Positions 16,131 to 18,480 of a DNA stretch of 64,000 bases are shown piece by piece. Positions within the stretch are counted from its first letter, which is position 1. Every line of letters starts with the position of its first letter. This stretch comes from Maribacter vaceletii (GTDB lineage Bacteria; Bacteroidota; Bacteroidia; Flavobacteriales; Flavobacteriaceae). A program made the translations under genes and the position numbers. The stretch spans positions 372,001 to 436,000 of the forward strand of contig NZ_RBIQ01000008.1 in assembly GCF_003634105.1 (NCBI RefSeq), read 5' to 3'. The notes beneath the pieces are model-generated. The model saw nothing but the letters and a program-made list of their open reading frames with translations, was not told the DNA's origin and ran no database searches.

Positions 16131-16892
16131 CTATCTATTAGTTTTATTTATTTGGCTTTTTAATTCCTCCATAGATTCCTGGAGCTGTTTTAACAAGCCT
16201 TTTTCCGTTGTAGCATCAATACCAAAAGTAATTTTACTATTTACTTCCCATATTTCTTGTATTTGATGGGGTTCTATATCATAAGGAGGATACGACTCAT
16301 TCAAAGACACCAAAGTAACGTTAGGAGAATTTGGCTTGCTAATAACTTTTTTAACCAAAACAGCATCTTGCAGTACAACTACATATATTTTATTAGCGCT
16401 AACTTCTTTTAAATCTTCAGTAGCTTTTGCTAAAACCCACTCCCCTGGTTTTAAATTAGGAAGCATACTATCTCCCTCTACTTGAAATCCTCTATAGGTA
16501 GCATTTCTAAACTCTGGTAAAGGTAAATCAAAAGCAGGTAATTCTTTATACCAACTAGTGTCTTCAATATTTTGAGGATATCCTGCAGCAGCTTTTGCAT
16601 TAACTAAAACCATATTATCATTATCTGCAGAATCAACGGTTACTACTTTTGGAATAACATTAGTAGAGGACGTTTCTATATATTGCTGGGTACTTTCTCC
16701 AAATAACCAAAGAGGATTAATTTTATATTTTTTTAAAAGCTCTACAACCACTTTTCCAGATAATTTTGTTCTACCTCTTTCTATATCTGCTGTAGTGTTA
16801 GAAACACCAATTTGTTTAGCAAAATCAGATTGAGTATACCCTAATTCTCTTCTTAAGTCTGTAAATCGTTTTAAAATAGCTTCGTTTTCCAT
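16131..16892 (-). CDS. LexA/CI-like repressor: XRE helix-turn-helix plus S24 self-cleaving protease
   Basis: This DNA-damage-type repressor has 253 residues. The N-terminal XRE helix-turn-helix (about 6-60, YTQSDFAKQIGVSNTTADIER) is followed by a linker and an S24 domain. The Ala-Gly cleavage site is probably Ala103-Gly104 in KAAAGYP. The nucleophile is Ser142 in GDSM and the general base Lys181 in VLVKK, so RecA-stimulated self-cleavage should work. Its promoter region carries several copies of an 11-bp dyad shared with the divergent gene pair, which implies autoregulation. The XRE rather than winged-helix DNA-binding domain separates it from E. coli LexA. It could be the SOS regulator of this genome or a domesticated phage repressor. 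Confidence 0.9.
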   Translation of the reverse strand: MENEAILKRFTDLRRELGYTQSDFAKQIGVSNTTADIERGRTKLSGKVVVELLKKYKINPLWLFGESTQQYIETSSTNVIPKVVTVDSADNDNMVLVNAKAAAGYPQNIEDTSWYKELPAFDLPLPEFRNATYRGFQVEGDSMLPNLKPGEWVLAKATEDLKEVSANKIYVVVLQDAVLVKKVISKPNSPNVTLVSLNESYPPYDIEPHQIQEIWEVNSKITFGIDATTEKGLLKQLQESMEELKSQINKTNR

Positions 16893-16896
16893 ATAT

Positions 16897-16925
16897 CAAA
16901 TATACACAATTAGGATTATTTCCAA
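16897..16925 (-). promoter_or_regulatory. Promoter of the S24 repressor gene
   Basis: The -7 element TATATTTG (16897-16904) and the -33 TTG (16923-16925) are on the minus strand with an 18-bp spacer, a good match to the Bacteroidota consensus. The dyad at 16913-16923 lies inside the spacer, so a bound repressor would block its own promoter. Confidence 0.6.
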
Positions 16926-16964
16926 AAAATATATTGGAATATTTCCATAATTAGGAAATATTCC
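16913..16964. promoter_or_regulatory. Triple operator: three 11-bp dyads GGAAwATwTCC type
   Basis: Three near-identical dyads lie in the divergent intergenic region: GGATTATTTCC (16913-16923), GGAATATTTCC (16936-16946) and GGAAATATTCC (16954-16964). The second and third are exact reverse complements of each other. The first overlaps the repressor's own promoter and the third abuts the -7 element of the divergent gene. Number, symmetry and position fit binding sites of the adjacent repressor. A fourth copy is at 17105-17115. Confidence 0.65.
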
Positions 16965-16965
16965 A

Positions 16966-16973
16966 TATTTTTG
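16966..16973 (+). promoter_or_regulatory. -7 promoter element of the clamp-motif gene pair
   Basis: TATTTTTG matches TAnnTTTG and begins 1 bp after the third operator dyad. Transcription should start near 16980. This rules out the TTG at 16976 as start codon and supports the ATG at 16997. Confidence 0.55.
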
Positions 16974-16996
16974 GATTGATACTAAAAATAGACACT

Positions 16997-17191
16997 ATGA
17001 TTTTTAAAGACATTCATTCCAAATTACACGCTATTGCTACAGTTGGTGAGGAAGATACCTTTATTAGCGTGATTCCTAGAAAAAAAAGAATCCCTATATT
17101 TTTTGGAAATATTCCAAAAAACACTGTTTCAATCGCAAATAGCAAAACAATAAAGAAAACTAATGCAGTACAACTATCTTTATTTAGCTAA
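16997..17191 (+). CDS. Small protein with C-terminal beta-clamp-binding motif
   Basis: This 64-residue protein has no family I recognise. It ends in QLSLFS, an exact match to the pentapeptide QLxLF with which DNA polymerases, UmuC and MutS-type proteins bind the sliding clamp. The rest is basic (RKKR at about 34) with a short hydrophobic strand (IPIFFGNIP) and no membrane helix. The gene is divergent from the S24 repressor, next to its operators, and 2 bp before a DNA-metabolism gene. A damage-induced protein that occupies or recruits to the clamp is the best inference. The ATG at 16997 was chosen over an upstream TTG (16976) because the promoter lies between them. Confidence 0.7.
   Translation: MIFKDIHSKLHAIATVGEEDTFISVIPRKKRIPIFFGNIPKNTVSIANSKTIKKTNAVQLSLFS
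17105..17115. promoter_or_regulatory. Fourth operator-like dyad inside the clamp-motif gene
   Basis: GGAAATATTCC is identical to the intergenic dyad at 16954-16964. Six T before and six A after it extend the symmetry to a palindrome of about 23 bp. It lies within the coding sequence, 108 bp after the ATG, where a bound repressor could act as a roadblock or form a loop with the upstream sites. Confidence 0.5.
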
Positions 17192-17193
17192 TT

Positions 17194-17955
17194 ATGGAAG
17201 AGACAAAAACATTAATTTACGATGGCAGTTTTAATGGTTTTTTAACCGCAGTATTTGTAGGGTTCGAAGAAAAAAGAAAAACTTTAAATATCAACAAAAG
17301 AACATCTTGTAGTAACAACTTATTTATAAAAACTCAAATAATATTTACAGACATGAAAAAAGCTAAACGTGTTTGGAATACAATTCAAAATAAAAATAGT
17401 ACCGCTCTAAAAAACATTTATTTTACTTTTTTAAGCGAAAAGAAAAATATAGAAAATGTATTGTATTTATATATCAAAAGCTTATTTAATCCCTACCAAG
17501 CAGCACAAATAGGTTTTTCAATTTCAGAACAAATTAACATAGAGGATGTTTCTTTAACTGTAGCAAAAGAAAAAAGATATTTAGAAAAAACTATACAATT
17601 TAAAGAATCTAATGATGGCATTTTTTACATAAATATTGCTCCTGATTTCGATGTTTTACCTCTATTATCAAAACATTTTAGGATTAGAGTTAATAAAAAA
17701 CCATGGTTAATATATGATGTAAATAGAAATTATGGTATTTATTATGACACTCACAGTACTGAAATAATTGTACTAGACACAAATCAAATATTCAAAGCTT
17801 CACAAAGGAAATTAAAGAATAATAGTGCCAAAATTAAAGTATTAAATAAATACTTTAATAAAAATAATTTAATAACACTGGTAATTAATAAACTAAAACA
17901 AAATAAACTTACATTAAATGACAATAAATTAAACCTAAATAGAATTGCTAATTAA
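17194..17955 (+). CDS. TIGR03915/DUF4130-type putative DNA repair protein, atypical C-terminus
   Basis: These 253 residues start with the family signature (LIYDGSFNGFLTAVFVGFE). The central blocks KAKRVWNTI, the YLYIKSLFNP region, FYINIAPDFDVLPLLSKHF and WLIYDVNRNYGIYYD are also present. Relatives are usually encoded beside a radical SAM protein of the TIGR03916 group and are thought to act in DNA repair. Here no radical SAM gene is present. From about residue 200 the sequence becomes Lys/Asn-rich and lacks the conserved end that I recall as 'PKRYW..LTE'. Either the C-terminus has decayed or this is a divergent subfamily. It is co-transcribed with the clamp-motif gene and probably under the S24 repressor. 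Confidence 0.8.
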   Translation: MEETKTLIYDGSFNGFLTAVFVGFEEKRKTLNINKRTSCSNNLFIKTQIIFTDMKKAKRVWNTIQNKNSTALKNIYFTFLSEKKNIENVLYLYIKSLFNPYQAAQIGFSISEQINIEDVSLTVAKEKRYLEKTIQFKESNDGIFYINIAPDFDVLPLLSKHFRIRVNKKPWLIYDVNRNYGIYYDTHSTEIIVLDTNQIFKASQRKLKNNSAKIKVLNKYFNKNNLITLVINKLKQNKLTLNDNKLNLNRIAN

Positions 17956-18480
17956 TTACTTTTTTACCCCTATAAAATGGTCTCTTTTATTATTAAACAA
18001 AACATTAAAAGTGGTAAGACTACCATAAATCCTAGTGATATATTGTTGCAAATCTACCTTTTCTTGGTCATCTAAATTTTTACTAGAATTAATTTTTTGT
18101 TCCATAACTCTAATTCTATCGCGAACCATTACAATTTTATGAAAAAAAGTATCTATTGGAATTTCTTTATTTGCTAAGTTAGCATCCAATGGCTGTATTA
18201 CCAAAGTTCCTTTTTTCCATTTATCTGCTATAGGAGTTATAGAAGAAGTATCACTCCATTTTCGTAAAATAGAAATTAAAGATTGTTCTACTTCAGAAAA
18301 ACTTATAGTATCCACATCATCTGTAACAGCTTCTATAATTTCAAAATCAGAATCCAAAGAAATAGTTTCTATTCCACTGTCCATGAAAGTTACCCAATAC
18401 ATAGTAGAAGTAACATTTGTAATTACTCCTTTACCAAATTCATTATGATTAATACGAGACCCTATTCCTAAAATTTTCAT
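17956..18480 (-). CDS. Conserved protein with N-terminal Tudor/KOW-like domain, function unknown
   Basis: The protein has 174 residues. The first 50 (GSRINHNEFGKGVITNV, then WVTFMDSGIETISL) follow the same pattern as the C-terminal Tudor-like domain of PcrA/UvrD, whose local copy reads GSLVNHTRFGRGKVLNL. The remainder is helical and charged without known motifs. The gene is divergent from uvrA, with 125 bp between them, and its stop codon abuts that of the DUF4130-type gene. Its neighbourhood of repair genes and the resemblance to the RNA polymerase-contacting domain of PcrA suggest a nucleic-acid or polymerase-associated role, but this is inference. Confidence 0.8.
   Translation of the reverse strand: MKILGIGSRINHNEFGKGVITNVTSTMYWVTFMDSGIETISLDSDFEIIEAVTDDVDTISFSEVEQSLISILRKWSDTSSITPIADKWKKGTLVIQPLDANLANKEIPIDTFFHKIVMVRDRIRVMEQKINSSKNLDDQEKVDLQQYITRIYGSLTTFNVLFNNKRDHFIGVKK

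Follow-up and report, generated by a model that had tools for sequence, protein, structure and literature searches.

A conserved small protein with a clamp-type C-terminal tail lies between a LexA-type repressor gene and a DUF4130 gene in Maribacter vaceletii

The window analysed here, a stretch of 64,000 nucleotides from Maribacter vaceletii, encodes a 64-residue protein that ends in QLSLFS and lies between a divergent S24 repressor gene and a gene for a DUF4130 protein. The small protein was confirmed to belong to a genuine family, conserved at 27 loci with the clamp-type tail kept in all of them, and purifying selection was measured in the window's clade. At homologous loci a radical SAM repair gene, whose product has a like tail, often takes its position, which the first-pass annotation of this DNA had overlooked. 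We consider that there is about an even chance that the small protein is a damage-induced adaptor that docks DUF4130 on the sliding clamp, with the binding, the partner and the induction all predicted from sequence.

Organization of the locus

The main features of the locus are as follows.

16131..16892, minus strand: S24/HTH repressor, a GGA-N5-TCC-type non-canonical LexA (domains, signature residues, motif)
16913..16923, no strand: predicted operator O1, GGATTATTTCC (sequence, conservation)
16936..16946, no strand: predicted operator O2, GGAATATTTCC (sequence, conservation)
16954..16964, no strand: predicted operator O3, GGAAATATTCC (sequence, conservation)
16997..17191, plus strand: small protein, 64 aa, with an N-terminal helix (residues 2-18 in the model), a basic linker and a QLSLFS end (sequence, family, model)
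17105..17115, no strand: internal dyad, GGAAATATTCC (sequence, alignment of relatives)
17171..17185, plus strand: codons of QLSLF, a clamp-binding-type pentapeptide, residues 59-63 (sequence, family-wide)
17194..17955, plus strand: DUF4130/TIGR03915 putative DNA repair protein, likely the second gene of the operon (profile scores)

This divergent layout, proposed from the sequence alone, was verified by the sequence, Pfam and TIGR03915. The small ORF has 64 codons when counted from ATG; a TTG start would give a protein of 71 aa. The DUF4130 gene starts 2 bp past its end, and the two genes probably share one transcript.

The repressor matched the Pfam domains Peptidase_S24 (47.6 bits) and HTH_3 (35.6 bits). 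With this protein as the query, the best 80 of 469 encoding stretches were taken as relatives, the nearest coming from uncultured Maribacter sp. and the next from other Maribacter and Flavobacteriaceae. The AAG and GDSMxP signatures were present in 80/80 homologues, and the lysine column was K in all 80. The repressor thus combines an HTH and an S24 domain having an Ala-Gly scissile bond and a Ser-Lys dyad, as in the GGA-N5-TCC group of LexA proteins, and it has GGA-N5-TCC operators in its own promoter. It is of the SOS type, and its operators are found again before umuDC and an SplB-type radical SAM gene in this genome, and before dinB and SRAP genes in relatives. In a sequence search of solved structures, it gave just a weak HTH match (8tac_A). 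Its mean dN/dS was 0.03 in the window's clade (8 pairs).

The DUF4130 gene scored 131.5 bits against TIGR03915 (cut-off 112.25) and 70.1 bits against PF13566 (cut-off 27), and its product has been predicted to be a mutagenesis-related enzyme (PMC3765255). No sequence relative was found among solved structures (best E 0.68). The top PDB folds for its structural model (pLDDT 85) were mainly of the DHH-phosphoesterase/RecJ type (best E 6.6e-4, though with TM 0.40 and rmsd 9.5), and no uracil-DNA glycosylase was among the 50 fold matches listed. Downstream, a 174-aa protein (17956-18480) with a weak match to PcrA_UvrD_tudor (14.4 bits, below the cut-off) lies between the DUF4130 gene and a gene that by eye resembles uvrA; the 174-aa protein is also encoded in L009.

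Operators at the locus

The three intergenic dyads and the fourth in the small gene lie where the first-pass annotation had placed them, and all four fit GGA-N5-TCC. The 12-bp motif suggested there for a genome scan, GGAAwATwTTCC, proved not to be the site: it occurs at two other places in the genome, both within ORFs, and the real site is the 11-bp GGA-N5-TCC. Within the 64-kb window, GGAANNNTTCC has three matches, all at this locus (expected 0.85; at least three in 4 of 100 shuffles). Of the five occurrences of GGAAATATTCC in the 3.89-Mb genome, three are at this locus and two within ORFs. Since this genome-wide total is not above that of the reversed-pattern control (3+2 vs 6+2), it is the clustering at the locus that counts.

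Conservation across homologous loci is strong evidence for these predicted operators. Among 81 sequences (the window and the best 80 of 469 loci), there are 50 in which the 130 bp preceding the repressor gene contain three or four GGA-N5-TCC sites; the other 31 have zero to two, many of them with an intergenic region exceeding the 130-bp scan. The operator layout is alike whether a radical SAM gene, a small gene or a DUF4130 gene comes next. We take TATATTTG (16897..16904, minus strand) to be the probable -7 element of the repressor promoter, by the promoter consensus; a TTTG lies 18 bp upstream of it and overlaps the edge of O1.

Operators elsewhere in the genome and in relatives

The sequence WWWGGAWWWWWTCCAW occurs at 13 distinct places in the genome of M. 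vaceletii, a number that does not exceed its control. Away from the locus, seven of nine such places are within ORFs, and the other two precede a UmuD-UmuC gene pair and a radical SAM gene of the PA0069 family. Both of the latter are operator pairs with a spacing of 19 bp. The umuDC operator (C2:576574) is just upstream of UmuD-UmuC, and would fall within that frame only given an upstream start; the UmuC-type score was 352.3 bits on a cut fragment (cut-off 431) and the UmuD-type score 91.2 bits (cut-off 110). The PA0069-family protein scored 474 bits (cut-off 360) and has QMRLF at its C-terminus.

Loose operator patterns were not commoner in this genome than when reversed (11+9 hits against 8+10 for one pattern, and 65 against 113 per strand for another), whereas the paired pattern, with up to one mismatch, was found in 31 of 31 genomes (1-6 each) and its reversed control in one of 31. 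Only the paired pattern is informative. Random scatter of the dyads in the genome had been named as an argument against an SOS-like regulon; the paired sites are not so scattered, as they precede umuDC, PA0069-type radical SAM, dinB and SRAP genes.

Outside the presumed repressor, PA0069 and umuDC promoters, which were omitted without being checked singly, 28 further paired places were hand-picked among the matches listed; two odd single-mismatch places (G424:C3:320002 and G407:C10:104298) were also omitted. A DinB-type gene is downstream of 21 of the 28, and of two more if an upstream start is discounted. A SRAP gene follows five (two of them between DinB and SRAP) and probably one more, and a single place (L232) has neither gene beside it. 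Two DinB and two SRAP proteins among these neighbours were checked against Pfam. Operators thus lie upstream of error-prone polymerase genes, umuDC in the window's genome and dinB in relatives. In G445 (L239, L240), DinB-type and SRAP genes are divergent around one operator pair, and in L238 a SRAP gene is divergent from an 88-aa ORF around such a pair.

The PA0069 gene is present in 27 of 30 genomes. Including the M. vaceletii gene, a site was found in 25 of 28 PA0069 promoters, taken as the 120 bp preceding and the 15 bp following an inferred start, which is often not ATG; five permuted dyads together gave one match. The pentapeptide Q[MLTW]xLF is at the C-terminus of all 28 PA0069 proteins (L120, L143-L169). 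UmuC of the present type occurs in five of 30 genomes (E 1e-60), one of them divergent. The site is directly before umuD in L138-L140, and in L141 it is farther up with an intervening ORF between. L142, with a UmuC that is 40% identical and no site, was dropped as a umuDC orthologue.

The small-protein family and its tail

Members of the small-protein family (27 loci) have 53-75 residues and an architecture of an N-terminal helix, a variable and mostly basic linker (net charge 0 to +11 in 25 distinct sequences) and a clamp-type tail, Q[LFP]xLF, in all. In 16 aligned members, an Ala is invariant in the N-terminal helix pattern, and the tail has an invariant Q, L and F. The AlphaFold model of the M. 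vaceletii protein, of low confidence (mean pLDDT 65), has one helix, at residues 2-18. This 64-aa protein has no Pfam or NCBIfam match at E 1, no radical SAM core or TIGR03916 match, and no match in phage records.

A single-protein query found matches in two of 199 genomes of the family Flavobacteriaceae, within the genus only, and an alignment profile was needed to reach the wider family. This profile matched 17 of 397 Flavobacteriaceae genomes (12 of 237 genera), and 16 of the 17 matches adjoin S24 and DUF4130 genes (L009 and 15 others). The 17th, L117, has neither neighbour and contains an internal stop, and was taken as spurious. Of the 20 loci examined beyond the best 80, L117 included, the other 19 have both of these genes beside the small gene. 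Within the window's genus, six of eight genomes have a small-protein match and two have none.

All 25 distinct sequences carry the motif Q[LFP]xLF at the C-terminus or no more than three residues from it, and the motif is also present in L092; the L011 protein equals that of L010 and has the same tail. The 25 tails are QLSLF (15), QLNLF (3), QLRLF (2), QLKLF (2), QFTLF (1), QLTLF (1) and QPSLF (1). The small protein thus has a QLxLF-type motif in an accessible place, as expected of a beta-clamp-binding protein. It is known that the C-terminal clamp motif of Bacillus subtilis PolC is QLSLF, with a reported peptide KD of 7.2 uM (PMC12309361).

A radical SAM gene in the position of the small gene

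A radical SAM gene encoding a protein of 420 aa (TIGR03916) often occupies the position of the small gene. By sequence pattern, 43 of the best 80 of 469 loci have a radical SAM gene next to the repressor gene, 15 have a clamp-tailed small ORF followed by DUF4130, one has a small gene together with a radical SAM gene (L075, where the contig ends soon past the latter), and 20 have DUF4130 without either, while L031 has none of the three. The 20 loci with neither partner show that such a partner of DUF4130 is not always needed. Beyond the 80, L110 and L114 have small, radical SAM and DUF4130 genes, so that three loci have both the small and the radical SAM gene; the small gene is therefore not simply a substitute. 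DUF4130 follows 40 of the 43 collected radical SAM genes. In two Cellulophaga loci (L026, L028), a radical SAM gene adjoins the repressor gene and no DUF4130 gene was found by pattern within 8 kb. In L025, L049 and L059, another short ORF (50-60 aa, Tyr-rich, basic, with no clamp tail) lies between the operators and DUF4130, with no radical SAM gene.

The search for TIGR03916 covered 45 of the 80 genomes, with all 36 that have none at the locus among them. It was above the cut-off in all nine tested genomes with a radical SAM gene at the locus, and absent from 35 of the 36 without one, several being metagenome assemblies that may be incomplete. The exception, L031, has a match in a frame with one stop. 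TIGR03916 is absent from 15 of 15 genomes that have a small gene and no radical SAM gene at the locus, and from that of M. vaceletii.

The tail Q[LM]xLF is within six residues of the C-terminus in 43 of 43 radical SAM proteins. Their N-termini scored 24.6 on the start-anchored profile of the small protein, against a background with a mean of -5.4 (sd 3.8, max 12.5, n=1057); this test was picked after the likeness was seen, and the 1057 background ORFs, being from the same loci, are not independent. When 9185 ORFs of the 80 loci were searched with an HMM built on the N-terminus of the small protein, the best radical SAM E was 37. Since the HMM finds no significant radical SAM N-terminus, the kinship of the ends of the two proteins is only suggestive.

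A quick S24+UvrA tree was made from 98 rows, 42 of which were filled to less than half, and gain is indistinguishable from loss on it. On this tree, the presence of the radical SAM gene changes 14 times and that of the small gene five times. In our interpretation the radical SAM gene was lost repeatedly, and the small gene is either older or was formed repeatedly. A tree-based paired test of the small against the radical SAM gene had too few independent pairs and was without power.

Possible function of the small protein

The adaptor reading draws on the combination of a helix, a mostly basic, variable linker and a clamp tail, beside DUF4130 and in the place often taken by a clamp-tailed partner enzyme. 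The repressor on O1-O3 would shut off the divergent operon as well as the promoter of its own gene, and in the window's clade it would probably bind the internal site too. After DNA damage, it would cleave itself at the Ala-Gly bond, judging from published homologues, and its loss would turn on the small and DUF4130 genes along with umuDC and the PA0069 radical SAM gene elsewhere. The C-terminal QLSLF of the small protein would then dock on the DnaN sliding clamp, the basic linker would run along the DNA, and the N-terminal helix, like the N-terminus of TIGR03916, would hold DUF4130. With TIGR03916 as the usual partner of DUF4130, the small protein would let DUF4130 go on working tethered to the clamp in genomes that have lost the enzyme. 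We propose, more tentatively, an origin for such a free, damage-induced DUF4130 clamp adaptor: the small gene may be a TIGR03916 gene minus its catalytic core, with the N-terminal helix and the clamp tail kept. The core may have been lost after a duplication, perhaps as in the loci with both genes.

The small protein might instead act on DnaN by itself. In competition with the replicase or mismatch repair it would, after damage, ease the access of UmuC or DinB or slow the fork, and DUF4130 would be just an operon neighbour. Such a role is unlikely in our estimate, and yet several observations fit it: the tail is identical to the clamp peptide of a replicative polymerase, the operators are common with umuDC here and with dinB in relatives, and three loci pair the small gene with a radical SAM gene whose product is already clamp-tailed. 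However, the linkage to DUF4130 at 19 of the 20 loci examined beyond the best 80, and the conserved N-terminal helix with its radical-SAM-like start, suggest a second partner. That partner could also be some other protein of the damage response (UmuC/UmuD, SRAP, RecA or the repressor), which the helix would bring to the clamp in place of DUF4130. The variable, adaptor-like linker would suit this, as would umuDC and, in relatives, SRAP under the same operators, but UmuC is patchy among the genomes, whereas DUF4130 adjoins the small gene at the loci examined; we regard this version as improbable.

Because both ends of the small protein resemble radical SAM ends, and the tested small-only genomes are without the enzyme, the gene could be a functionless remnant left by internal deletion of a radical SAM gene. 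However, it is under purifying selection, with the tail held most tightly. Its mean dN/dS in the window's clade is 0.23 (10 pairs), the same as for DUF4130 (0.23, 10 pairs), and pN/pS rises from 0.10 over the last 8 codons through 0.26 over the first 20 to 0.51 in the codons between. The order is the same in a second clade (tail 0.14, start 0.35, middle 0.68), where the small gene (dN/dS 0.37, 13/21 pairs) is looser than DUF4130 (0.16, 2 pairs). The value of about 0.23 largely refutes decay, and the gene also persists in several clades, with five state changes on the tree, and coexists with the radical SAM gene in three loci, making a remnant very improbable.

The internal dyad is identical in the window and L010-L013, with its GGA/TCC arms kept in L092, and overlaps the longest identical run of the clade alignment (13 columns, equalled in 445 of 20000 column shuffles). 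Outside this clade, 11 of 12 small genes from other lineages have no GGA-N5-TCC, and the dyad is likely a clade-specific extra operator or roadblock. These features would also be expected if the coding were unimportant and the segment were a leader kept for an internal operator, a roadblock tightening DUF4130 repression, an explanation that we find very improbable, as the 11 genes without the site nevertheless keep the protein ends and both ends are conserved at the amino-acid level.

Comparison with known systems

Sanchez-Osuna et al. (2021) described a non-canonical LexA group of Bacteroidetes with its GGA-N5-TCC motif and regulon, and reported DNA binding and mitomycin C induction for the repressor of S. 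agarivorans (WP_075324850.1) (PMC8565304). Their network contains DinB, SplB radical SAM (COG1533), COG1573-COG4277, umuDC and SRAP (COG2135) (PMC8565304). We infer that the COG1573-COG4277 pair is the TIGR03915/TIGR03916 pair. Of the SOS-like core claimed in the first-pass annotation, the repressor, the operators and the clamp-tailed small protein stand, but the regulator, motif and regulon are not new, being present in that paper (PMC8565304). The terms 'clamp', 'DUF4130' and 'hypothetical protein' appear nowhere in its main text, and the available portion does not mention the small gene. The accompanying statement that no small protein of this kind had been described agrees with our searches: none was found in open-licence PubMed Central papers, and as far as these show the family is new to print.

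For the radical SAM/DUF4130 pair, no established reaction was met in the literature, and PMC3765255 gives a prediction for DUF4130. That the small protein and two radical SAM families with operators have a clamp-type tail in common points to the replication clamp as the site of this repair, and the tail offers an experimental handle on it. Should the small protein prove to be a core-less derivative, it would serve as a natural experiment on the portions of the enzyme that are important in recruiting DUF4130.

The system of M. vaceletii and its relatives shares with the Bacteroidetes GGA-N5-TCC LexA system the S24/CI-like repressor with its Ala-Gly and Ser-Lys signature, the operators in the repressor's own promoter, and the regulon members umuDC, dinB, SplB-type radical SAM and SRAP, as well as the COG1573-COG4277 pair if it is equated as above (PMC8565304). 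Compared with the TIGR03916 (rSAM_link_UDG)-TIGR03915 (DUF4130) pair, the position and the operators are the same and the DUF4130 partner is kept; the TIGR03916 enzyme has the same kind of C-terminal tail and first 20 residues that may be similar, but also a radical SAM core, which the small protein lacks, and TIGR03916 is absent from the M. vaceletii genome. The C-terminal pentapeptide QLSLF is identical to that of B. subtilis PolC (PMC12309361), a large polymerase, whereas here it ends a 64-aa protein without a recognised domain. The PA0069 family (NF033668) resembles the small gene in having paired operators upstream and a C-terminal QMRLF, and differs in being a full enzyme encoded elsewhere in the genome.
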